IMG/VR virus record: IMGVR_UViG_3300006754_000076
Location: 1 to 31,636 of that record
DNA: 31,636 bases
Reading direction: 5' to 3' (one strand)
Source: a virus
Every line of letters starts with the position of its first letter. Position 1 is the stretch's first letter. The notes under the pieces were generated by a model. The model had not been told where the DNA came from. It was given only the letters and a program-made list of their open reading frames with translations, and searched no databases. The position numbers were made by a program, and so were the translations under genes. Below, in pieces: positions 2,985 to 31,636 of the stretch.

Positions 2985-4886
2985 ATGAACATTTCAAACA
3001 AAATTTTATCGGATATTACTGTTTACATGAAGTATGCAAAATATATTCCAGAATTGAATAGAAGAGAAACATGGGAAGAATTAGTGACTAGGAATAAAAA
3101 TATGCATATAAAAAAATATCCAAACCTTAAAGATGAGATTAGTGAAAAATATAAAATGGTACAGGATAAAAAGATATTACCATCAATGAGGTCCATGCAA
3201 TTTGCAGGTAAACCAATAGAGATATCACCAAACAGAGTTTATAATTGTGCCTACTTACCGATAGACTCTATCGACTCATTTAACGAAACAATGTTTTTAC
3301 TACTAGGTGGTACAGGTGTTGGATACTCTGTTCAAAAACATCATGTTGAAAAATTACCAATAATACAAAAACCATATACAAAGAGAACAAAAAGATTCTT
3401 AATTGGTGACTCTATTGAAGGATGGGCGGATTCAATTAAAGTTTTAATGAAATCATATATGAATGGCGGTGGTAGTACCATAGAATTTGACTTCTCCGAT
3501 ATTAGAGCAAAAGGAGCAAGACTAGTAACATCAGGTGGAAAGGCACCAGGACCACAACCACTAAAAGAATGTTTGGTTAAGATTGAAGGTCTTTTAATGC
3601 AAAAAGAAAATGGGGAACAATTAACTACATTAGAAACACATGACATTATATGTTATATCGCAGACGCTGTATTAGCTGGTGGCATTAGAAGAGCGGCTCT
3701 TATTAGTTTATTTAGTGCAGATGACGAACAAATGATTTCGTGTAAAGCTGGTAATTGGTGGGAATTAAACCCACAACGTGGAAGAGCAAATAATTCTGCA
3801 TGTTTAATGAGACATAAAATTACGAAATCATTTTTCATGGGTTTATGGAAAAGAGTAGAATTATCAGGAGCAGGAGAACCGGGGATTTATCTTAACAATG
3901 ATAAAGATTGGGGAACTAATCCATGTTGTGAGATTGCTTTACGTCCATACCAGTTCTGTAATTTATGTGAAGTGAATGTATCAAATATAGAATCCCAAGA
4001 AGATTTAAATGAAAGAGTTAAAGCGGCAGCATTTATTGGAACACTCCAAGCAGGGTATACTAACTTTCATTATTTAAGAGAAATTTGGCAAGAGACCACT
4101 GAAAAAGACGCTCTTATCGGTGTGTCAATGACAGGTATAGGTTCTGGTAAAGTATTAGACTATGACATGTCAAAGTCCGCAAGTTTAGTAAAAAGAGAAA
4201 ATACCAGAGTATCCAAACTAATCAACATAAACCAGTCAGCAAGATGTACAACTGTAAAACCTGCAGGAACAACATCATTAACACTAGGTACTTCATCAGG
4301 TATTCATGCATGGCATAATAATTATTATATTAGAAGAATTAGAGTTGGTAAGAATGAATCGATATACCAACATTTGGTTATACACCATCCAGAATTAGTT
4401 GAAGATGAATACTTCAGACCACATGATACAGCAGTAATAACTATCCCTCAAAAATCACCAGAAGGTTCTATATTAAGAACTGAATCACCATTCCAACTAC
4501 TAGAGAGAGTTAAGAAGGTTGCAACAGAATGGGTAAAATCTGGCCATAGAAAAGGTTCAAACTCACATAATGTGTCTGCAACAATATCATTAAGAGACCA
4601 TGAATGGGACGCAGCTGGAGAGTGGATGTGGGAAAACAGAAAGCACTATAACGGACTATCAGTATTACCATACAATGGTGGAACATACATTCAAGCACCA
4701 TTTGAAGATATTACAAAGGAAACATATGAAGAAATGTTAGAAACTTTAAAAGAAGTTGACTTAACTAAAGTAGTAGAATTAGATGATAATACTAATTTAT
4801 CAGGTGAATTAGCATGTGCGGGTGGAAGTTGTGAGATTGATGTGGATTTAAAAAAGTTAGAAGAAGTAGGTGAAACACAAATTTAG
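2985..4886 (+). CDS. adenosylcobalamin-dependent (class II) ribonucleotide reductase, monomeric RTPR type
   Basis: Reduces ribonucleotides to deoxyribonucleotides with a cobalamin-generated thiyl radical, supplying dNTPs for phage replication. Visible landmarks are YNCAYLP with redox Cys88, LGGTGVGYSVQ, DFSDIRAKGARL, the class II signature NPCCEI (N312, radical Cys314, E316), FCNLCE with redox partner Cys325, VKPAGTTSL, and a mobile C-terminal pair CAGGSC (Cys611, Cys616) for re-reduction. These map onto C119, C408, C419 and C731/C736 of the Lactobacillus leichmannii enzyme (739 residues). The protein is shorter at 633 residues, mainly between the first Cys and the radical Cys, where that enzyme carries its allosteric insertion. 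No small subunit, activase or cobalamin gene is present, so it depends on host B12. ATG start without Shine-Dalgarno. Its 3' end overlaps the next gene by 17 bases. Confidence 0.92.
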   Translation: MNISNKILSDITVYMKYAKYIPELNRRETWEELVTRNKNMHIKKYPNLKDEISEKYKMVQDKKILPSMRSMQFAGKPIEISPNRVYNCAYLPIDSIDSFNETMFLLLGGTGVGYSVQKHHVEKLPIIQKPYTKRTKRFLIGDSIEGWADSIKVLMKSYMNGGGSTIEFDFSDIRAKGARLVTSGGKAPGPQPLKECLVKIEGLLMQKENGEQLTTLETHDIICYIADAVLAGGIRRAALISLFSADDEQMISCKAGNWWELNPQRGRANNSACLMRHKITKSFFMGLWKRVELSGAGEPGIYLNNDKDWGTNPCCEIALRPYQFCNLCEVNVSNIESQEDLNERVKAAAFIGTLQAGYTNFHYLREIWQETTEKDALIGVSMTGIGSGKVLDYDMSKSASLVKRENTRVSKLININQSARCTTVKPAGTTSLTLGTSSGIHAWHNNYYIRRIRVGKNESIYQHLVIHHPELVEDEYFRPHDTAVITIPQKSPEGSILRTESPFQLLERVKKVATEWVKSGHRKGSNSHNVSATISLRDHEWDAAGEWMWENRKHYNGLSVLPYNGGTYIQAPFEDITKETYEEMLETLKEVDLTKVVELDDNTNLSGELACAGGSCEIDVDLKKLEEVGETQI

Positions 4887-5279: not shown

Positions 5280-5747
5280 ATGGAAATTGCAAGAGAACGA
5301 TATGGTGTAACCTTTCCCTTCCAGGACAGTCCTAGTGGTTTTTTTTTAAGAACTACTACAACTCCTAGAGAAGAGATTAGGACTAATTTAATTCATTTAC
5401 TATTAACAAGGAAAGGTAGTAGATACTTTTTACCTGATTTTGGTACTAGACTTTATCAGTTTATCTTTGACCAATTAGACGCTGATACGTTTCAAGCAAT
5501 AGACGCTGAAATAAAAGAAGCGGTAGGAAGGTATCTTCCTAATGTAAAAATTAATGAAGTAAAAGTAGAAAAAATAGACCTAACCCAACCTACCGACCAA
5601 AATAATGTAGTTGCTACTGAATTAAATGACAGCATTTATAGGGTAGCGGGAAACGGCACTGAAGAATACACAGCAAAAATTTCTATAGACTTTAGTATGA
5701 GGGACGATGTGTTTGGTAATAGAGATTTTATAATAATTAATTTATAA
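5280..5747 (+). CDS. baseplate wedge protein, gp25/GPW family
   Basis: Small baseplate protein that in T4 joins wedge to hub and helps nucleate sheath assembly. The family core is visible in the first 70 residues: a hydrophobic helix of the form IRTNLIHLLLTRKGSRY, then LPDFGTRLYQFIFD, then an acidic helix (IDAEIKEAVGRYLPNV) and a beta tail ending in FIIINL. It has 155 residues against 132 in T4 gp25. The extra residues look like a loop (TDQNNVVATELNDSIYRVAG) between the last strands. The following gp6-like gene starts 1 base after its stop, the usual 25-6 neighbourhood of contractile tails. A run of nine T at 5339-5347 lies in frame and does not disturb the reading frame. ATG start without Shine-Dalgarno. 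Confidence 0.88.
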   Translation: MEIARERYGVTFPFQDSPSGFFLRTTTTPREEIRTNLIHLLLTRKGSRYFLPDFGTRLYQFIFDQLDADTFQAIDAEIKEAVGRYLPNVKINEVKVEKIDLTQPTDQNNVVATELNDSIYRVAGNGTEEYTAKISIDFSMRDDVFGNRDFIIINL

Positions 5748-5748
5748 T

Positions 5749-7614
5749 ATGGCGTATACAGAAGAAACAAAACAAATATCTTATACTGAAAGAGATTTTT
5801 TAGGAATAAGAAACGAACTTATCAGATTAACTAATACTTACTACCCTAATTTAATTAAAAATACAAATGACGGGTCAATCTATTCAGTATTCTTAGATTT
5901 AAACGCTGCCGTAGCTGATAACCTAAACTATCAAATAGATAGAAGTTTACAAGAAACCGTATTACAATTTGCTCAAGAAAGAAGTTCTTTGTATAATATA
6001 GCAAGAACTTATGGGTTAAAAATACCAGGTAACAGACCTTCTGTTGCTCTCTGTGACTTTTCAATTATAGTACCCGCATTTGGAGATAAAGAAGATGAAA
6101 CCTATTTAGGGTTTTTAAGGAGAAGTTCACAAGTAAGAGGTGCAGGTCAAGTTTTTGAACTAGCAAACGATTGTGATTTTTCTTCACCATATTCCGTTGA
6201 CGGGGTACCAAACAGAACCAAAATTCCAAATGTAGATGCGAATGGTATTATAAACAATTATACCATAACTAAACGAGAAGTAGTAATCAACGGAGTTACT
6301 AAAATATTTAAAAAAGCTATTACGGACGTTGACTCAAAACCATTTTTTAAAACATACTTACCTGATAGAAATGTGTTAGGGATAACCTCAATTATTGAAA
6401 AATCAGGATTAGGATACACCACTCTACCTTCAGATTTAGAATTTTTAACAACCTCCAACGATAGATACTACGAAGTAGACGCGTTAGCGGAAAAAGAGAT
6501 TTTTGTAAACGACCCTTCAGCTCCTAGTGATAATCCCGGATTAAAACCTGGTAAATATGTTAAAACTGGTAAGAGATTTATTACAGAATTTACTCCAGAA
6601 GGATTTTTCTTTTTAACTTTTGGTGGAGGAAATACAACCTCACAAGACCTTTTAAATAGTTTTTCTAAATATGGTACCACTATTAACGCTTCTAAATATT
6701 TTAATAATATTTCTTTAGGTGCTGCAGTGAGACCCAACACAACCCTGTTTATACAATATAGGGTGGGTGGTGGAAAAGCGTCTAATGTTGGGGCTGGCTC
6801 CATAACCTCTATAGGCCAAGTAGATTTTGTAGTTTCAGGACCTGCTCCCGCTATCAACACTAGGGTAAAAAATAGTTTAAAAGTAACAAATGTTACAGCA
6901 GCTATAGGTGGTGACGATTTAATGCCTACAGAAGAAATAAGAAATTATATCTCCTTTAATTTTGCTGCACAAAACAGAGCAGTAACACTAACGGACTATA
7001 TTTCGAAGGTAAGACTAATGCCTGCTCAATTTGGTGCTGCCGCTAAAGTAGGAGCTATAGAAGTAGAAAACAAAGTAAAGTTAAATGTATTATCTTATAC
7101 ACCTACAGGTGAACTTACATCCGCAGTATCCTCTACATTAAAACAAAATATAGCAGAATACCTATCTAATTATAGGATGTTAAATGATTATGTAGAAATA
7201 GGTTCAGGGGCCGTTATAGATTTAGGTATTGATGTCGATATCTTAATACAAAATATGGTAAACCAAGGAGAAATCATTAATAATGTCATACAACAAATTA
7301 AAGACTTCTTTAAACCTGAAAATAATGAGATGGGAACTAAACTTAATATCAGTGAACTTACTAGTAAGATAGTAAACCAACCTGGAGTGACAAATGTGGT
7401 TGACCTTAGAGTTTATAATAAAGTAGGTGGACAATATTCCAACTCTAAAGTAGCCCAACCTTTCATACCCGACACCCCTAATCAAATATATTTAATTGAT
7501 AGTACTATTATTTTCCAACCAAACGAAATAGCACAAATAAGATTTCCATCCAAAGACATTAAAATTAGAGTAAAACAAACTGAGAATTCCGTTTACTCTA
7601 ATAATGTCATATAA
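5749..7614 (+). CDS. baseplate wedge protein, gp6/gpJ-like
   Basis: Core wedge protein that in T4 forms the inner baseplate ring with gp7 and gp53. Support comes from its position next to gp25, its size (621 residues against 660 in T4 gp6), and the N-terminal pattern typical of J-like proteins: YTERDFLGIRNELIRL, then NDGSIYSVFLDLNAAVADNLNYQID and a helix with QERSSLYNIARTYG. Later comes a beta-rich middle and an AVTLTDYISKVRLMPAQFGAA segment, the conserved region near the C-terminal third of gpJ/gp6 proteins, followed by helical dimerisation-like segments. The last 20 codons are duplicated, in degraded form, just after the stop. ATG start 1 base after the gp25-like stop. Confidence 0.85.
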   Translation: MAYTEETKQISYTERDFLGIRNELIRLTNTYYPNLIKNTNDGSIYSVFLDLNAAVADNLNYQIDRSLQETVLQFAQERSSLYNIARTYGLKIPGNRPSVALCDFSIIVPAFGDKEDETYLGFLRRSSQVRGAGQVFELANDCDFSSPYSVDGVPNRTKIPNVDANGIINNYTITKREVVINGVTKIFKKAITDVDSKPFFKTYLPDRNVLGITSIIEKSGLGYTTLPSDLEFLTTSNDRYYEVDALAEKEIFVNDPSAPSDNPGLKPGKYVKTGKRFITEFTPEGFFFLTFGGGNTTSQDLLNSFSKYGTTINASKYFNNISLGAAVRPNTTLFIQYRVGGGKASNVGAGSITSIGQVDFVVSGPAPAINTRVKNSLKVTNVTAAIGGDDLMPTEEIRNYISFNFAAQNRAVTLTDYISKVRLMPAQFGAAAKVGAIEVENKVKLNVLSYTPTGELTSAVSSTLKQNIAEYLSNYRMLNDYVEIGSGAVIDLGIDVDILIQNMVNQGEIINNVIQQIKDFFKPENNEMGTKLNISELTSKIVNQPGVTNVVDLRVYNKVGGQYSNSKVAQPFIPDTPNQIYLIDSTIIFQPNEIAQIRFPSKDIKIRVKQTENSVYSNNVI

Positions 7615-17651: not shown

Positions 17652-18581
17652 ATGGCATTAGGAGCATACGGAATCAAAAGACCAGCAGACGTTTCACCGA
17701 TAGACGTTGAAATAATATATCAATACCAACCAAATAGAGACAAAACACAATTATTTCAGTTAGGAAGGTTAGACCCTACTGCGGTATTAGCTCCTTATGT
17801 GCACAATGCAAATACCGCATTAGGTACGACTGCTACTCCTGGGGTAGAGATATTAGGAGGGTTCTATAGTTTAACCCTACCTAGCAGTATTTTTGCAACA
17901 AAAGGAATATATACGTTGATGATAAGACCTGTAGAAATTAGAACAAAAATAATTGATTGTGGTATTTTAGCGGCTTTACCTAATGTAAAAGGACTTGTAT
18001 TTGATTTAAATCAGGTAGACCAGAAATTTAGAAATAGATTTACACCTATGAATTTAGTAGGATATAGAATTGAGTATCTAAATAATAACGGTAGTAAAAT
18101 TCCTAATTTTTATAGAATAGTTACGTCTAATTTTTATTGTGAACCAGTTCCAACTAATTTAACACAAACTAACCAAGTCTCACCTCGTTATGTTTATACG
18201 GATAATCCATCCAATTTAATATTTTGTACACTATCACCAACAGCAGCTCCAACTAATCAACCAAACGCGATACCATTTATAGGTCAACCAACACAAGGTA
18301 CTATTATTACTAATACCTTTTTTAACCCTATTTCTCTTGAGATAGAAATGGTAGACCAAGATTTCGATACATTAGCAATCGCATTATATGGTAATCAGAC
18401 CAAATCAATTGATGATGGAATATATACAATTTACGATTTAAGTGGTGCAAATAACATATATAAACAATATAACTTATTTGAAATCAGGGATGAATTTGAT
18501 AAACAATTATTTGAGGTACGACAAGATAGAGGTACCCAGATAGATTTTAGTAAAGATTTTAATACGATAATTAATCAATAA
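17652..18581 (+). CDS. tail/baseplate structural protein, 309 aa
   Basis: I do not recognise a family. It starts 3 bases after the preceding stop, and its own stop shares one base with the next ATG. The sequence is beta-rich with repeated short strands (ILGGFYSLTLPSSIF, KGIYTLMIRPVEIRTKI) and a proline/threonine linker in the middle (LSPTAAPTNQPNAIPF). It ends with a charged segment (EIRDEFDKQLFEVRQDRG). Three cysteines only. Its place just before the gpI/gp7-like gene suggests a wedge-associated structural protein. No adhesin-like module is seen. Confidence 0.7.
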   Translation: MALGAYGIKRPADVSPIDVEIIYQYQPNRDKTQLFQLGRLDPTAVLAPYVHNANTALGTTATPGVEILGGFYSLTLPSSIFATKGIYTLMIRPVEIRTKIIDCGILAALPNVKGLVFDLNQVDQKFRNRFTPMNLVGYRIEYLNNNGSKIPNFYRIVTSNFYCEPVPTNLTQTNQVSPRYVYTDNPSNLIFCTLSPTAAPTNQPNAIPFIGQPTQGTIITNTFFNPISLEIEMVDQDFDTLAIALYGNQTKSIDDGIYTIYDLSGANNIYKQYNLFEIRDEFDKQLFEVRQDRGTQIDFSKDFNTIINQ

Positions 18582-21500
18582 TGGCAAAGTTTTATTATCC
18601 ACCAGCACCAGGAAATGGAGCGGGAACTTTCAGTGATAATTTAGTTGGGTTCCAAATCACAGACGGGTCCTCGCTAGCTACTTTAGGGAATTTTACTATA
18701 ACAGATTCTTCTAGAGAAAAGATTACTTTTGATTATGCAACCGGAGGATTTTCAGAACCTATAACCTTAGAATTACTTGCAGCAGGAAATGAAGACTTAA
18801 TAGAGTTATTTAGTAATAATGCTTTTCTTATTAAGTTTAATCGTGATACCGACGATATAAGTAAATTAGTACAGTATGGTTCTTTAAGCGAAAGATTACG
18901 TGTAGCAACCCAAGAAATTATTAACTTCTTTCCCGCAGCTCTATATATTGACGGTATAAGTCAACTAACAGGAGGCACCGGAAATACCACACAATTAATT
19001 TCTTACGATATTATAAATAAACAGACTACCATTACTTTTTCTAGATTCAATCTTTCTAATCCATTTGGTATTGAATTCACAAGTAACGGTTTGTTGGGTA
19101 TAGAGTCTTCTATGGATATGGACTATGTGGTGGTAGACGAAGATGATACTATTAGCACCGTAACACAACAAGCGTCATTAGGAAAGATTTCTCCACTAAG
19201 AAATTTTTCTCTTAATTATTTTAAATACGCTTTAAGTTTTAGTGGAAGTGGAAATACAGAATATAGGGTAACAGACTATACCCCTATAGATGAGAATACA
19301 ACAAACTTAACTTTAATTGTATCAGGAGCACCATTTGGTACAACACCTACACCTTCGAAAACCCCTTTCTATTTAAAACCACAGAAATTCTACAGTCAGA
19401 AATCTATGGATGATTTGGATAATGTGGAAAAATTTATCTTAAGTCAGAAAAGTACACCACAATACACCTCTACCTTTAAAGTAATGAGTGAAACTGAGGG
19501 AGGACAAAACTATATAAAGAAAATATCTTATACATGGCCTAAAGCAGACCTAGTAAACCTTGATATCACATCTCAAAACTATATAGACTATGTTCAAAAT
19601 CTAGTAGATGTAGGCAAATTATTAGACGAAAATAAAACTAATTTGGTTTCTCGCTTTTTAACTACAGGGGCTTTAAAAGAGTTTGATACTTCTGATAGAA
19701 AAGTAGAAAAAACTTTACAAATTTATGGTAGAAGTTTTGATGATGTTAAGAGGTTTATAGACGGCATAGAATATATGAGCAATATCACCTATGATGGTCT
19801 AGAAAACGTACCTAATAAACTTCTTAGAAATTTTGCTTTAATGTTAGGATGGAAAACACCAAGCATAGTCACCCACGAGAGTTTATTAACTACCCTATTA
19901 GACACAGCTCAACCACAATTTTCAGGAGAATCTATAGGTCTGACTCCCGCAGAATTGGACATAGAAGTATATAGGAGAATATTAATGAATACCGCTTATC
20001 TCTTTAAATCTAAAGGAACTAGAAAAGTGGTAGAATTTATATTGGATTTCATAGGAGCCCCAGTATCCATGATTCAATTCAATGAATATATTATGTTAGC
20101 GGATGCACCTATTCATATGGGTATTTATCCCGCGATGGATTGGCAAATAGAAGATGGTTGTCCTGATAGATGTTGTAAGGATAATTTTTACCAGGATAGA
20201 TGGGTACCAGATATCCCCCCATATATAATACATACCCCATTTACAGACCCAGACACCGGCTTAAGTTATAGATGTGAATGCCCACCCAAATATCATGAAA
20301 TACAATGCCCAGGATTTACTGTAAACAACTTTGACGGCTATTTTGGTAGTATAAGTGGTGGTGTGGTTAATTATCCTACTTACATATACGATTGGGTAAC
20401 CGGCAACTATTCGTTAGGACCCAATGAGACTTTCACACATTCTTTTGTGAGAGGAGATTATCCTATTGATAGAGAGGGATACCCAACAAAACCAAACTAC
20501 AATAGCAGTTACTATTTCCAACGAGGGTCAGGATGGTACGAAGAAACGTTAGAACATAGAGGAGATGTTATTATTGATTTAGAAAACTCTACATTTACAG
20601 GATGTTCCCCTACAGTAAAAACAAAACTAAACCAATTTTCATGGGGTGGGTTTTTTGGTAACGTACCTCATGGTGTAACATCTAACGACCCGGGAGCACC
20701 TTATTTAGAAAGATTTAGAAGATTCCCCTATCTTCATTTTGGTTTTGGATTAGACCCTAAAATAGACGATAAAAAATCATGGGTAGAAACAGTAAAATAT
20801 ACAAATTTAATAGGTCGTTTAGATTTAGGTATCCCAGTATGGAGAGATAGAGAAACTGCAAGTGCACAAGCACAAGAGGCTGGTTGTAAAGGTGTACATA
20901 CTCATGAATTGAATGGGGAAGTTGGTTATGTAGCTTGTAACTCTCACGCTATGACCCAATTAAATGCTGGTGTATTAAATCTTTTTGCATCAATACCAGG
21001 AGAAGAGATAGAAAGAGATTATAATTTAGAAAATTATAGATATGCAGATTATTATAGCCGTGACGAAAGATTAGTAATAAATGTTAAAAATACAGATATA
21101 TTTTTAAATCCTTCCCAGGCTTTCATTTATGAAGTTTGGAATCAATCGGTATTAAGTGGTTGTCCATTTGACGGTACCCCACTTAACGGGTCTAGATACG
21201 GGTGGAATAATACTTTAGTAAATTACCCCAATATAGGGCAAAATGATAGCACTTTAACATTATTAAACGCTAAAGACTTTTCATTTAAAAAATTTATTAA
21301 CGAGTTTATATCTACATTTATAAATGTTAAAAATAGGTTAACTATAGATGATGGTAAGACAGGGGGTTATCCTACTCTACAAATGTTATTCTTAGATTAT
21401 ATAAAACAAAAATGTGGGGAGAATAACGAATATAGGTACAATAAATTATTCGATTATGCAAACGCTTTAGGTACTACATGGATTAAGATATTAGAACAAT

Positions 21501-22111
21501 TTATCCCTGCAACAACTTTATGGCAAGGAGGTGTAAGAGTAGAAAATTCTTTATTTCATCGAGATAAGTTTGTTTATAATTGGCAGGCTATGTATTCGGC
21601 AACAACACAAGCTTCTGCTATCACCGATTCTCGTTCTGGTGAAACAACCAGTCCATGTTGTTGGGTAGAGACTACAGGGTATACAAACACAAGCCATCCT
21701 GCTTCTTTTAAGCTTGCTTTTCCTGGTTCTTTTATCCCTACAGGTGCTACATCTAATTACCCCGCCTGCACAGTCCCAGAATCGGGCATTACATTGAGCG
21801 CAAGAAGTCAATATGAATCAGAGTGGGTAACATGTAAGTCCACCTATCCTTCCCTATATAATTACCTAGGTTTAGACCCGGATGAATTAACCAACGTACC
21901 CTCAACAGGCGTTATAACAGCTATTAATTTAACAACTAATGGATTTAATAGTAACGCCTCTCCAGTACAACCCTCTAATATGCCCGCGCCACCAATTGGA
22001 GGGTATAACATACAACCTCTATTCTATGCTTCACAAATTGTGGTGGAACCGGCAAAATTATTAGAGGATGAAAACGCTTTACCACCATGGGGGTACCAGT
22101 TTAAATTATAA
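18581..22111 (+). CDS. baseplate wedge protein with P2 gpI/T4 gp7-like core and Cys-rich insert
   Basis: The middle carries a pattern typical of tail protein I: VPNKLLRNFALMLGW (residues about 410-424), then IEVYRRILMNTAYLFKSKGT (from 461) and RKVVEFILDFIGAP (to about 494). This is the helical core that packs against gp6/gpJ in contractile baseplates. The C-terminal part returns to a helical segment (LQMLFLDYIKQKCG, WIKILEQFIPATTLWQGG), as in tail-tip proteins that end by anchoring to the particle. Between these lies a Cys-rich, aromatic insert (CPDRCCKDN, YRCECPPKYHEIQCPGF; about residues 525-590). The N-terminal 300 residues are beta-rich. Its 1176 residues compare with 1032 for T4 gp7. The gpI/gp7 assignment is a motif-level inference. 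ATG overlaps the previous stop by one base. Confidence 0.7.
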   Translation: MAKFYYPPAPGNGAGTFSDNLVGFQITDGSSLATLGNFTITDSSREKITFDYATGGFSEPITLELLAAGNEDLIELFSNNAFLIKFNRDTDDISKLVQYGSLSERLRVATQEIINFFPAALYIDGISQLTGGTGNTTQLISYDIINKQTTITFSRFNLSNPFGIEFTSNGLLGIESSMDMDYVVVDEDDTISTVTQQASLGKISPLRNFSLNYFKYALSFSGSGNTEYRVTDYTPIDENTTNLTLIVSGAPFGTTPTPSKTPFYLKPQKFYSQKSMDDLDNVEKFILSQKSTPQYTSTFKVMSETEGGQNYIKKISYTWPKADLVNLDITSQNYIDYVQNLVDVGKLLDENKTNLVSRFLTTGALKEFDTSDRKVEKTLQIYGRSFDDVKRFIDGIEYMSNITYDGLENVPNKLLRNFALMLGWKTPSIVTHESLLTTLLDTAQPQFSGESIGLTPAELDIEVYRRILMNTAYLFKSKGTRKVVEFILDFIGAPVSMIQFNEYIMLADAPIHMGIYPAMDWQIEDGCPDRCCKDNFYQDRWVPDIPPYIIHTPFTDPDTGLSYRCECPPKYHEIQCPGFTVNNFDGYFGSISGGVVNYPTYIYDWVTGNYSLGPNETFTHSFVRGDYPIDREGYPTKPNYNSSYYFQRGSGWYEETLEHRGDVIIDLENSTFTGCSPTVKTKLNQFSWGGFFGNVPHGVTSNDPGAPYLERFRRFPYLHFGFGLDPKIDDKKSWVETVKYTNLIGRLDLGIPVWRDRETASAQAQEAGCKGVHTHELNGEVGYVACNSHAMTQLNAGVLNLFASIPGEEIERDYNLENYRYADYYSRDERLVINVKNTDIFLNPSQAFIYEVWNQSVLSGCPFDGTPLNGSRYGWNNTLVNYPNIGQNDSTLTLLNAKDFSFKKFINEFISTFINVKNRLTIDDGKTGGYPTLQMLFLDYIKQKCGENNEYRYNKLFDYANALGTTWIKILEQFIPATTLWQGGVRVENSLFHRDKFVYNWQAMYSATTQASAITDSRSGETTSPCCWVETTGYTNTSHPASFKLAFPGSFIPTGATSNYPACTVPESGITLSARSQYESEWVTCKSTYPSLYNYLGLDPDELTNVPSTGVITAINLTTNGFNSNASPVQPSNMPAPPIGGYNIQPLFYASQIVVEPAKLLEDENALPPWGYQFKL

Positions 22112-26198: not shown

Positions 26199-29100
26199 AT
26201 GGCAACTGGAGATATTTTTATAAATGATTACATAGTGACTCCCACAATTTCAGGGGAAAGTTCAGGAACTATTAGTGTTAGTAGTATAAGTGGTGGAACA
26301 GCCCCATATACTATACAATGGTATGGACCTTCACCGTACCCTTATAATTTAGATTCTGGGTCTACCCTTAATATTTCTAATTTATCTGGAGGTACTTACA
26401 CAGGAAGATGTATAGACTCCGAAGGGTTAAGTGCAGATACGGAAATAGGTGTTTCAGCATACACTGCTCCTACTTTTTCCGCTACTATAACAGACGATAG
26501 TTGTATAGTTAACCCTAATAAGTCATGTGAATTTACAGTATGGTCTGCAGGTACTGACACCGCTTATTTAAGTGCGTCTAGTTTTAACTATCTTCTATAT
26601 AGAAATGGTAGCTTGTTTGACCAAGCAACTGTAAGTAGTGGTACCACATCACCAAACCAAGGAGACCCCGCAAGAGGAGGGTACCATGTATTTTCAGGAC
26701 TAACTAACGGACAATATAGTTTTGTAATAGAAAGAAGTTCTAGTTTTACTTTATTCGAAAGTGTGCCTACTTCATATTGTACAGGTGTAACATCTGACGG
26801 AAGAACAACATCAGGAGCAGACGTATATCAGAGTTTTTCTGGAGGAACTTCGGGATATGGAACAAATTGGAATTATTCACTTGCAACTCACGAAATTAAT
26901 ACCACTGGATTTACTACAGGTCTTTTTAGTGGTGGAATAGTTACAGATGCCACAAACCATTGGTTTTTTACTGGGAATTCACAAACTGGGGCGTTAAATG
27001 AAGAGGACTATACTCTATCTAACCCTAATAGTGCAAGAACTACTTCTAATGAATTTAATTACTATCTAGGCGTTACCGGTGCCACTGATATGGCTGAAGG
27101 GTATAATTGGGGGCCCAATGGAGGTGGAAAACCAGATACAGATGGTGATAGTGCGGATTTGGAAGGAAATGTAATAGCTGGCGCAGCGTTTAGGGGATAT
27201 TTCTATTATAATAATAATATTAATAGATTTGTAATGTGGGATAATATTTCAGGAGATACAGCGGTTGTAACGGGTCTGGAATATGGATGGAAAACCATAA
27301 GCCCATTATTACGTAATGGGACCCCAAAATTTACACGTCAAACACACGTTAGTTCAGGTTCACCATGCCCATCGATATGGATGGCTGAAGGACTGATGCT
27401 ATTTTCACAATATAATAAACCCACCAGCTTTTTTACTTCTTATAAGCATCCAGGTAACGACGACACAATTAAAATGGTAGATGCAAATAACCTAGTAGCG
27501 GATTTAAATAAAACTGTACCAGCACTTGGGTCAGCGGACATATATACAAGTAATGCGGTTGCACAAAGTGGAACCCCACTTAACTATATGAGTTCATGTC
27601 AATTTGGAAATTATACCCATGATATTACACTGTTTGTGAGCGGTGATACAGCAAGTTTAGAACTTACAAGCCTGGTGTTAGCTTCGATTAGGGACCCCGA
27701 GGGAATATACGGCATTAGTGGTACCACACACCAATTAACACTCGACATTAATCACTTAAGTGGAGTAACAATAAATTATAATGGTGGAGGAAATACATCA
27801 AATTCTTTTCAGAGAGATTTATATGGTTCACCCATAAGTTCAAATTCTTCTGCTGAACGTTCTAATGAACATGTGACGTTAAATACTGTAAGAACAAAGA
27901 GCGACGTAAAAACCATCAATCGTAAGACAAGACGGGAGGAAAAAATTATTTTTGACTACATTAAAGAAGAAAACTTAAAAACCTATGGGGGTAACACATC
28001 TCCTCTTCGACAGAGCAGTAACTTAGGACTTCAAACCAAAGAATTCTCAAGTGTCGTATTACGTAATCCAGGTAGAGAATTCGTTGCACTAGGTTCGTCT
28101 AGTCCTTACTTATCAGGAGGTAGTATGAGTTTACAAGGTTCTATAAGGGTAAGAATTGAAAGAAGGGGAGAACAAGGAGAATTATTTAAAATTAAAATGA
28201 CAGATACTTTTGGTGACACAACCTACGCTACTGAAGCTGTATTAGACTATGGTGACACATGCGTTTTTGATTCTGACTACGAGATTAATTTTAATTTACT
28301 AGATTCTAATACATGGTCAGGAGCGGTAGAATCTGCACCTAGCTGGGTTTTGGGTACAGAACTAGAGAAATTTTGTGGTGGTGTTAGTGTTGGGTATGGA
28401 ACCACACACTATGACGCAAATTTGTACTATAGAGGTTTCACCGGAGACCCAGCTAATAATACCATAATACAACGTTCGGATGTGAAACCTATTTTCCGAA
28501 AAACTGCCTTTACTTTAACAAGTAGTGCTACAACTAATGTAATTAAAACTAAAGATTGTGATTACTACCCCAATTGTGAGGTTACAGTACCACAATCAAG
28601 ACCACTACCTTCTGCCAGCTTCCAAACTCTAAGTGAACCTTCTTTTATTTTATCTGGTGCAGCTTCAGGAACATCCGGAGAGTTATCAGCACAAACTATT
28701 TATAACCTTTCATCTTATACAGGAACTAATTTAACTATATTTTTAACTGGAGATACTTCAGATATTCTAACTAATCAGGCCTATTTAAAATTGTACGTGT
28801 ACCCATACGAGTATCAAAAAGAGAGATTTTCCACAAACCCAGATTATAGATATCTCTTCAACACCACAAACCAAATACCCGATACAATATTAAGTAATCC
28901 TTCACCAGGATTTTCTGCGTCTACATTTTTTCCGTTTTCAGCTTTCTCAACAGGGTCATCATGGCAATTCCTAGTTAAACCTTCTTATCTATTTAGAGAT
29001 AAAAGTAGTACTAAAGGAATTTATATTGACACTTCTGAAATAACAGATACGGTAACTTATAACAGTAATCTGGACTATATCCTAACATTAGTAAACCCAC

Positions 29101-30101
29101 CAGAACAAATAAGTTTAATAAATGCAAATATAAATTTCCAACCTAACGCTACCGCAAGATTAGAGACACAAACGGTGACAGCCACCAACATACCGGCCTT
29201 TAGTGCAAATAGTGCATACACTTTTTCAGGTGTTACACTACTTTCCAACCCAACCTCTAATTTATTAGTCACCCTTAATGGTGTAGTTCTAAAAGAAGAC
29301 CCAGGAAATGTAATATCAGGAGGAACCCCAGTTAGTGCGTTCACAAATATAGATTATAGAAGAACCGCCTCTAACCCTACTAGAATAACCTTTGCACCAG
29401 AAACAGTAAAAGATGGTGACGTAATCCAAGTGATTTACCCAACTGACAATAAACGAAGTTATTATAAACAAGCAGTAACCGTGGGTACTCCAGGAACCTC
29501 AACAGGGGCCACTATCTATCATGACACTTATTATTACTATATTAATTTAGATTATGCACCATTAGGGGCAATTGCACTAGCATATAATGGACAAATCTTA
29601 GCAGAAAATAGTGATTTCCAAAGAGTAACCCCTACCCGAATTCAACTACTTAGTTTAACTTATGACGCTACAGCGTTAGGTAGTAGTGATGTTTTTACAT
29701 TCTATTATTTAACTCAATATACTGTGGTGGGACAAACTACAACTAGTGAACCAGTAACTTCCATAGAGTATTACAAAACATTAGGATTTAAAGAATCTTT
29801 AAAACAAATTACTTATGTAGCTGGTACAGGAGAAATGGTACAAGAATTAGCACAATTTTATACAGCAGCAGATTACGGGACAAAAAATCATACTTTTACT
29901 ATTTCCGTACCTAGTGCGGGAACTTACAATTATAGAGTTATAGCAACCCGTTACTACCCATTACTAGGGGATAAAGAAATAACAACTAGTAGAGTGACAG
30001 AAGACGTTGTCTTTGAAATGACTAGACAAAGTTTCTTTTCACCATATAAACTTCCCCGTAACGTAAGAGAAATAAATCCTCGCGGCGGAGGAACGTATTA
30101 A
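26199..30101 (+). CDS. giant virion protein with N-terminal SprB-like repeat, 1300 aa
   Basis: Residues 19-76 match the SprB repeat pattern of Bacteroidota gliding adhesins: GTISVSSISGGTAPYTIQW, then LNISNLSGGTYTGRCIDSEG (consensus G.ISV...GGT.PYTY.W...L.NL..G.YT..V.D..GC). The middle is Gly/Ser/Thr/Asn-rich beta sequence with a short acidic loop (KPDTDGDSADLEG). Around residues 560-620 a basic, helical patch (RTKSDVKTINRKTRREEKII) separates N- and C-terminal halves. The C-terminal half contains repeated strand patterns such as LLVTLNGVVLKEDPG and AIALAYNGQILAENSDFQRV, similar to short beta motifs in phage fibre proteins. It is probably a fibre or baseplate protein for surface binding; whether it mimics or binds host gliding adhesins is unknown. 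ATG start 12 bases after the previous stop. Confidence 0.75.
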   Translation: MATGDIFINDYIVTPTISGESSGTISVSSISGGTAPYTIQWYGPSPYPYNLDSGSTLNISNLSGGTYTGRCIDSEGLSADTEIGVSAYTAPTFSATITDDSCIVNPNKSCEFTVWSAGTDTAYLSASSFNYLLYRNGSLFDQATVSSGTTSPNQGDPARGGYHVFSGLTNGQYSFVIERSSSFTLFESVPTSYCTGVTSDGRTTSGADVYQSFSGGTSGYGTNWNYSLATHEINTTGFTTGLFSGGIVTDATNHWFFTGNSQTGALNEEDYTLSNPNSARTTSNEFNYYLGVTGATDMAEGYNWGPNGGGKPDTDGDSADLEGNVIAGAAFRGYFYYNNNINRFVMWDNISGDTAVVTGLEYGWKTISPLLRNGTPKFTRQTHVSSGSPCPSIWMAEGLMLFSQYNKPTSFFTSYKHPGNDDTIKMVDANNLVADLNKTVPALGSADIYTSNAVAQSGTPLNYMSSCQFGNYTHDITLFVSGDTASLELTSLVLASIRDPEGIYGISGTTHQLTLDINHLSGVTINYNGGGNTSNSFQRDLYGSPISSNSSAERSNEHVTLNTVRTKSDVKTINRKTRREEKIIFDYIKEENLKTYGGNTSPLRQSSNLGLQTKEFSSVVLRNPGREFVALGSSSPYLSGGSMSLQGSIRVRIERRGEQGELFKIKMTDTFGDTTYATEAVLDYGDTCVFDSDYEINFNLLDSNTWSGAVESAPSWVLGTELEKFCGGVSVGYGTTHYDANLYYRGFTGDPANNTIIQRSDVKPIFRKTAFTLTSSATTNVIKTKDCDYYPNCEVTVPQSRPLPSASFQTLSEPSFILSGAASGTSGELSAQTIYNLSSYTGTNLTIFLTGDTSDILTNQAYLKLYVYPYEYQKERFSTNPDYRYLFNTTNQIPDTILSNPSPGFSASTFFPFSAFSTGSSWQFLVKPSYLFRDKSSTKGIYIDTSEITDTVTYNSNLDYILTLVNPPEQISLINANINFQPNATARLETQTVTATNIPAFSANSAYTFSGVTLLSNPTSNLLVTLNGVVLKEDPGNVISGGTPVSAFTNIDYRRTASNPTRITFAPETVKDGDVIQVIYPTDNKRSYYKQAVTVGTPGTSTGATIYHDTYYYYINLDYAPLGAIALAYNGQILAENSDFQRVTPTRIQLLSLTYDATALGSSDVFTFYYLTQYTVVGQTTTSEPVTSIEYYKTLGFKESLKQITYVAGTGEMVQELAQFYTAADYGTKNHTFTISVPSAGTYNYRVIATRYYPLLGDKEITTSRVTEDVVFEMTRQSFFSPYKLPRNVREINPRGGGTY

Positions 30102-30138: not shown

Positions 30139-31636
30139 ATGGCCTATATACTAAAAGACTCAACCCAAGGACAAGTAGCGGTAAAGCTTACTGACGCTGG
30201 AAGAAAAAAATTATCAGAAGGAAATTTGAACATAGAATTATTCCAATTAGGGGATAGTGAATATTGTTATGATTGTTATAGTACGTTACCAACTCAGTAT
30301 GCTGGTATACACATACAACAAGCAAATTTCAATGCACAAAATTTAAATCCTATTCCGGAAAAAAATAAAGCACACATAAAATACCCAGTTCCGAGTAACC
30401 CAACTGTAAGCGCAACCACATTTGGACCAGTACAAGCTGCTCATACTTATGAAGAGGTATTCAATAGAGCAACACCGAGAGGTTTTTATACTGGAAACAC
30501 TGGCAGTTGTTGTAGTTTTTCTGCTTTTACAGGTTCTGCTTATACCCTTAATGCTAATTTCTTTTTCCCAGTTTCCGCCATGACAGGAGGAAGTGTGGTA
30601 GAGTTATTGTCAGCAGACACTTTTGTAAATCAAGCATTTTCTTCTGATACTATACCAGGATATACTCCTGTTGTGGGAGATTTATTAAGTATGCGTTATA
30701 TATTTGCTAGTGGTGGCACCGGTGATGGTGTAGCAACTGGTGTTACAAATTGTTATAATCTACCCTGTACCGCATCTTCCGCACATCTTTTCTATCAAAT
30801 CCAAGGAGGAAATAGTAGTTCAGGCGTATCAGCGTCTAATTGGTCAGGTAGTACTGTTAAACCTTTATATTATACTGTAGATAGAAAATTACCAGATTTT
30901 GGTAGATTTTCTGGAGATGGAATATTCGACTTTGGTCAATATACTGGAGCCACAGGGATGGCAATAGGAGCCTGTGTTAGAGTATATCCGTCCGTAAGTG
31001 GAGGAACCTATTCCGCACAATCTACTAATCCTATGTTAACATGGTATGGAGCAGATACACCTATCCCATATTGGTCACCTGGTTCATTATCTTTTGAAAA
31101 CAATTGTGATGTTTCTGTTAAAGATGTTAAAGTGTGGAACATGAATATAAATTGGTCGGAAAGTGTAGCAGGGGTAAATAATGTAACTGAAGGTTATGAA
31201 CCTTATACTTACTATGGCTCCACAGGATATTGTGGAACCAAAGAATATCTAGGATATATGTCTACAGGACAAACAGATACAGGTATGGTTAGTGATTACT
31301 ATATGCCTAATAGTAAAAGTTCTTCATGGTATATAGACTCTTATTTAAATACTCGAGTAGTTAGACCTACAAAACAAAAAGCAATTGCAGCCTGCAGAGA
31401 GTGCGGATGCGGCTCCATGGGCTGCGGCATACGCGTGGATGGCTGGTGGTCCGTATTTTGGAACTCGCCAGCAGTAGATCGCCCGACAGTTTGCGACATG
31501 CTTTGCAACGGCAACCGAGCCTTAAGGATCAAACTCCCCGTTAATCACCCATTCGGAAAATGGATCTTTGCATTAAAGAAGGATGCGTTTACAAATGACT
31601 GCTCCGAAAGGATAGGCGGAACAGTTTGCCCTGGCA
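30139..31636 (+). CDS. structural protein, open at the window edge; last 85 codons compositionally foreign
   Basis: ATG 30139 opens a frame that is uninterrupted to the window end (499 codons). The N-terminus (STQGQVAVKLTDAGRKKLSE, then LFQLGDSEYCYDCY) is a charged helix followed by a cysteine pair and looks like the docking end of a virion protein. The following about 370 residues are Ser/Gly/Thr/Tyr-rich beta sequence like the neighbouring genes. From about base 31381 (residue 415) G+C rises from about 30% to over 50%, cysteine becomes TGC rather than TGT, and the protein turns into GCGSMGCGIRVDGWW and similar. The first 414 residues are confidently phage; the remainder may be an assembly join or a recombined C-terminus. 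Family unknown. Confidence 0.7.
   Translation, partial: MAYILKDSTQGQVAVKLTDAGRKKLSEGNLNIELFQLGDSEYCYDCYSTLPTQYAGIHIQQANFNAQNLNPIPEKNKAHIKYPVPSNPTVSATTFGPVQAAHTYEEVFNRATPRGFYTGNTGSCCSFSAFTGSAYTLNANFFFPVSAMTGGSVVELLSADTFVNQAFSSDTIPGYTPVVGDLLSMRYIFASGGTGDGVATGVTNCYNLPCTASSAHLFYQIQGGNSSSGVSASNWSGSTVKPLYYTVDRKLPDFGRFSGDGIFDFGQYTGATGMAIGACVRVYPSVSGGTYSAQSTNPMLTWYGADTPIPYWSPGSLSFENNCDVSVKDVKVWNMNINWSESVAGVNNVTEGYEPYTYYGSTGYCGTKEYLGYMSTGQTDTGMVSDYYMPNSKSSSWYIDSYLNTRVVRPTKQKAIAACRECGCGSMGCGIRVDGWWSVFWNSPAVDRPTVCDMLCNGNRALRIKLPVNHPFGKWIFALKKDAFTNDCSERIGGTVCPG
31381..31636. other. GC-rich terminal segment, possible chimeric join
   Basis: By direct count, bases 31381-31620 have about 53% G+C (63% in the first 60), against 28% and 33% in the two preceding 60-base lines. 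The frame of the upstream gene stays open, but a second frame (from 31382) also reads plausibly as a protein end (ADAAPWAAAYAWMAGGPYFG, shortly followed by a stop at about 31475), so the true reading frame, if any, is unclear. No mobile-element end or repeat marks the boundary. Confidence 0.6.

Follow-up and report, generated by a model that had tools for sequence, protein, structure and literature searches.

The locus studied here raises the question of how a protein of a phage tail comes to begin with a repeat of the type named after SprB, which is described as a 6497-aa filamentous adhesin (PMC9870892), and what this repeat does on a virion. The window, that is, the whole stretch of DNA analysed (31,636 nucleotides), corresponds to a 31.6-kb record in IMG/VR and comes from an uncultured marine phage. 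It encodes a 5'-3' exonuclease, a DnaB-like helicase, a ribonucleotide reductase, a gp25-like protein and baseplate J, beyond which lie genes for large uncharacterised proteins. The genes from gp25 and baseplate J onward constitute a contractile-tail module, and the presence of these two genes upstream supports well the designation "phage virion protein" that the repeat-bearing gene had received in a preliminary description. The relevant genes are:

5280 to 5747, plus strand: gp25-like baseplate wedge protein
5749 to 7614, plus strand: baseplate J / wedge protein
18581 to 22111, plus strand: neighbour of 1176 aa
22068 to 26186, plus strand: upstream neighbour of 1372 aa with a Cys-rich C-terminus, conserved in the contigs of the family
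26199 to 30101, plus strand: ORF of 1300 aa, the tail-module virion protein bearing the SprB-type module, with full-length homologues
30139 to 31635, plus strand: downstream neighbour, open at the window end, conserved in the family and in related contigs L253, L258, L267 and L268

The gene for the 1372-aa neighbour shares 44 bases with the one before it; its product has a long Cys-rich end and gave no Pfam match. In the phage-record search for named relatives, the downstream gene at 30139 had no match, and the 1300-aa protein had none among 50,697 phage records.

No close cultured relative of the phage was found, and megablast of the first 20 kb was empty. Baseplate J shared 27% identity with the homologues of Flavobacterium phage immuto and Microcystis phage Mel-JY01. 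The ribonucleotide reductase (2985 to 4886) was nearest to that of Mel-JY01 (67% identity), followed by those of Vibrio (62%) and Oceanospirillum phages, and the tail genes were far more distant from their homologues, suggesting gene exchange. As some genes best match those of Microcystis or Vibrio phages, gene similarity does not identify the host. Shine-Dalgarno motifs are typically lacking in Bacteroidota. They preceded 7% of gene starts in the window (120 to 31635), compared with 7% in shuffles; the values were 5% and 1% in related loci, and 3%, 32% and 75% in immuto, Mel-JY01 and enterophages, respectively. This lack of a signal points, indirectly, to a host that probably belongs to Bacteroidota.

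The ORF starts with an ATG at 26199, in register with the starts of its homologues. Its product comprises the following parts:

26199 to 26474, plus strand: SprB-type Ig-like domain, residues 1–92
26253 to 26330, plus strand: core match to Pfam family PF13573, residues 19–44, profile positions 11–35 of 37, with the motif SGGTAPYTIQW
26475 to 26753, plus strand: second beta-sandwich in the predicted structure, residues 93–185, degenerate
27249 to 27548, plus strand: most variable stretch, residues 351–450, a candidate specificity region
28032 to 30098, plus strand: C-terminal chain of beta-sandwiches in the predicted structure, residues 612–1300

The N-terminal domain is a SprB-type unit. PF13573 scored 28.9 bits (E 8.7e-7) on the isolated 93-aa N-terminus, just passing the gathering cut-off of 28, and 28.7 bits on residues 1–101. 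A six-frame search of the window gave 30.5 bits, and the whole 1300-aa protein gave 22.8 bits, which is below the cut-off. The preliminary description had located the repeat correctly at the N-terminus but had ended it too early, at residue 76 (26426); the unit covers residues 15–91 approximately and extends to about 26474. Generic Ig families scored lower on the domain. No Ig, PKD or BACON family reached its own cut-off, the best rival was Ig_3 (E 0.14; 13.1 bits against a cut-off of 30), and BACON gave no Pfam match up to E 1. Likewise, Ig families had no match in the 15 phage-family members scanned. A PDB sequence search with the domain returned GhpA of Aureispira (E 0.0014) and the phage decoration protein 5lxk (E 0.1).

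The window protein contained one significant unit and no tandem SprB array, and no T9SS C-terminal sorting domain was found, the last 433 aa matching no Pfam family up to E 1. The second sandwich (residues 93–185) had no Pfam match, and the SprB model gave hints of 11–13 bits in this region only in some homologues (L145, L150 and L160). For the body of the protein, neither Pfam nor PHROGs gave a match, and the PDB gave none that was convincing. Two contigs of about 116 kb (L163:3-6857 and L164:3-6857) encode a virion structural protein of 2285 aa (PHROG 37948 and 15100), a stretch of which matched positions 272–697 of the family profile (E ~1e-50); the body is thus related to a protein of another lineage of phages.

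We scanned 84,980 species genomes using five members of the phage family as the query. In total, 134 stretches were confirmed and 79 loci were kept, of which 78 are Bacteroidota by title and one is an Eisenbacteria bin. The phage profile detected 516 full units in 76 of the kept loci, with a best score of 52.9 bits, and cellular units without the search pattern reached 46.5 bits. In the opposite direction, a model of Bacteroidota units only gave 47.9 bits on the window protein (residues 15–91, E 4.6e-12 at Z=100,000), 35–60 bits per protein in the phage family and 28–43 bits per unit on enterophage control domains; reversed proteins gave no score. Because the loci used to build the cellular-unit model had been found with a phage query, the test was repeated in five genomes on arrays that PF13573 itself had located; these genomes were still picked via the earlier phage-query scan. 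The phage profile recognised tandem units in these arrays, mostly at a spacing of 70–90 aa, and profile A2 scored up to 36 bits per unit against a shuffled maximum of −1.1. The negative shuffled and reversed controls ruled out a chance match. The proposed kinship with Bacteroidota surface repeats is thus upheld, both by the 78 of 79 cellular loci and by the arrays located with PF13573. The outcome named in the preliminary description as refuting this link, a better fit to generic Ig folds, did not arise.

Related viral contigs were reached using the helicase. A homologue of the 1300-aa protein was encoded by 14 of 45 related viral records, with six PF13573 matches, all under the cut-off; among 15 members of the phage family, PF13573 matched seven. 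The search with profile A1, composed of 12 full-length proteins, yielded 32 loci. Pattern scans of viral contigs from a single protein, either the 1300-aa protein or its upstream neighbour, found nothing, whereas alignment-based scans were successful. The module opens every homologue whose N-terminus is present (28 distinct copies), indicating that a PF13573 scan, with its few matches, under-reports it. The window copy is the member nearest to the Pfam consensus.

Capture of a host surface module had been proposed for this protein, with a tree suggested to see whether the phage copy nests inside a host clade. The unrooted domain tree (69 rows, 87 columns), which included the 28 distinct phage copies, did not show such nesting, as its backbone among the cellular units was without resolution. 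The phage family formed one clade (support 100/98), and the enterophage Ig domains formed another (98/98). Distances between modules followed those between the C-terminal bodies (Mantel r 0.92, 0 of 2000 permutations), and the nearest neighbours mostly agreed. The mean identity was 0.41 in the module versus 0.34–0.36 elsewhere in the protein, and the identity to the sister copy was 66–70% in the module versus 22–25% in residues 351–450. A recent capture specific to this phage is ruled out by the module in every homologue and by its co-divergence with the body, and capture is not visible here as an event. Because the copies also form one clade, any capture must be ancient. The module is thus a long-standing component of this phage protein family, passed down vertically with it. 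Its ultimate source was probably the Bacteroidota unit pool, long ago.

We used AlphaFold to predict the structure of residues 1–556. Residues 1–90 and 92–185 are each predicted to adopt an Ig-like beta-sandwich, with pLDDT of about 60–87 for most positions (mostly 62–82 in the first), and residues 186–556 were of low confidence. In structure comparison, the N-terminal sandwiches resembled generic tandem Fn3/Ig folds (Z 7–8). The match to GhpA had Z 7.2 and rmsd 4.2 over 143 residues at 18% identity, and that to a phage N4 capsid chain had Z 7.2 and rmsd 3.0 over 83 residues at 25% identity; Z at this level indicates a shared fold only. For residues 612–1300, the prediction was a series of consecutive sandwiches (mean pLDDT 71.5); their structural matches were all weak and included some phage tail fibres.

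We consider it moderately probable that the module is an inherited SprB-type unit serving as a structural spacer or docking module in the tail protein of a probable Bacteroidota phage. The ORF product would be a long baseplate or fibre protein of the contractile tail, rich in beta structure and built of several domains. By analogy with other phage fibres, its N-terminus may be virion-proximal. The two N-terminal sandwiches would then serve as a rigid spacer or as a docking element, anchoring the protein to the virion or to its neighbours, and the variable middle (about residues 350–450) would make variable contacts. The conserved module and the variable residues 351–450 are the reverse of what is expected of a specificity-determining tip, which favours a spacer or docking role. 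A conserved surface could also be a glycan site.

Related contigs (L253, L256, L257, L259, L260 and L262–L266) encode proteins of about 700–1170 aa with six to eight SprB-type units, including the tail-module proteins at L253:1120-3234, L256:3203-6088 and L266:3398-5569. L251 and L261 were left out of the slot comparison because they may be host or prophage sequence. In L253, L256 and L266, the gene immediately preceding that of the six-to-eight-unit protein is a homologue of the gene at 18581 to 22111, and in L253 a homologue of the gene at 30139 lies downstream of the array protein. With homologues of the neighbours flanking the array proteins, the slot is conserved and the unit number changes, so that one genomic slot holds either a single unit or six to eight, depending on the phage. 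This would be as expected of a stalk whose length is set by the number of units.

The six-to-eight-unit arrays also fit a role in host adhesion, in which a unit derived from a Bacteroidota adhesin would bind the same polysaccharides or adhesin partners and help reversible adsorption. Bacteroidota surface repeats are the nearest cellular kin of the module, and the BACON arrays carried by phage tail proteins are considered to take part in host binding (PMC6949934). However, the module of the window protein is N-terminal, present in a single copy and more conserved than the rest, which speaks mildly against glycan binding or competition with adhesin contacts. In addition, the accounts of SprB on which we drew describe a filamentous adhesin and assign no ligand to its repeats. 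We regard an adhesive role, with glycan binding, as the leading alternative, though a rather doubtful one.

SprB-type units themselves form one branch of the broader set of Ig-like domains, and the module might instead be a generic Ig-like domain from the old Hoc/pb10/Wac pool of phages, its resemblance to SprB merely reflecting how short and permissive the PF13573 profile is. Indeed, PF13573 matched the Wac fibritins of RB16 (42 bits), SemperBestia (39 bits) and GuL6 (54 bits), T5-type pb10 (25–27 bits) and the tail protein gp58 of coliphage Skarpretter (29 bits). The latter protein (L276:1267-2004 of the Escherichia phage) carries the depositors' label SprB superfamily and scores as Ig_3 too. 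Since PF13573 matches virion proteins of coliphages and enterophages, the family name alone proves no host link, and these controls rule out a PF13573 match as proof of host origin. A generic domain would also agree with the structure matches to generic Ig/Fn3 folds and the N4 capsid chain, with the weak Hoc-like PHROGs matches, which were obtained for the 93-aa domain (E 0.0065 and 0.011) but not for the whole protein, whose gene lies in the tail module, and with a clade joining the phage family and phage Ig domains, which was not rejected (p-AU 0.48). Nevertheless, the Wac, pb10 and gp58 controls were also near or above the cut-offs of Ig_2, Ig_3 or I-set, and the phage family was not. The phage-family profile gave about 16–25 bits per enterophage control domain, with a maximum of 24.6, far from the best score on Bacteroidota units. 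In hhalign, the match of the phage domain to the PF13573-located Bacteroidota arrays was scored at 98.8% (E 4.8e-17, 58 columns) and that to the phage Ig controls at E 3.1e-10; on this profile–profile comparison, the phage domain is nearer to the Bacteroidota repeats than to phage Ig domains. A Cys pair, one near the start and one in L-C-x-G-x-Y, occurs in 18 of 28 phage-family members, although the window copy has neither Cys. The N-terminal Cys is usual in Bacteroidota units (84 of 92, with the full pair in seven of 92) and absent from the six controls. A generic origin is therefore unlikely.

It is very improbable that widespread marine Bacteroidota phages build tail fibres from mobile adhesin modules of their hosts and engage the gliding or adhesin apparatus, for example by riding or docking on SprB-type filaments, with the unit number tuned between lineages. 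Least probable of all is a gain of the Bacteroidota units from phages, which the unrooted tree with its poorly resolved backbone would allow, as cellular units are very numerous and diverse (516 in 76 loci) and the phage-family copies form one clade.

Phages are well known to carry Ig-like modules. Hoc, T5-type pb10 and Wac likewise place an Ig-like sandwich on virion proteins, and Wac and pb10 match PF13573 as well. They differ from the spacer or docking module proposed here in having generic Ig scores too, in scoring 16–25 bits per domain with the phage-family profile and in being, in the records examined, head or neck proteins. For a phage protein, matching PF13573 is thus not enough to signal either a Bacteroidota host or a recent capture.

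Compared with the SprB repeat (PF13573) of Flavobacterium johnsoniae SprB, the unit of the window protein is the same domain at about full length, with the motif GGT-PY-x-x-W ... L-x-x-G-x-Y-x-x-x-x-x-D. Unlike the SprB-type adhesins of F. johnsoniae, which carry a tandem array, the window protein has one clear unit, sits on a phage tail, lacks the paired Cys and contains no T9SS sorting domain that we could find. GhpA, the grappling hook protein of Aureispira (9flp, 9flw), is a Bacteroidota surface protein whose units match by both sequence and fold, but it is a cellular adhesin of 5898 aa with many units. Our literature search found no paper treating the SprB repeat and phage virions together. 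The closest published analogue is the BACON repeats on the tail proteins of crAss-like phages (PMC6949934), which are likewise a Bacteroidota-associated module with a lineage-dependent copy number. BACON is a different domain family and occurs as arrays in gut phages, whereas the family of the window protein is marine and has one unit. SprB-type units thus join BACON on the short list of Bacteroidota surface modules that have become fixed in phage tail proteins.
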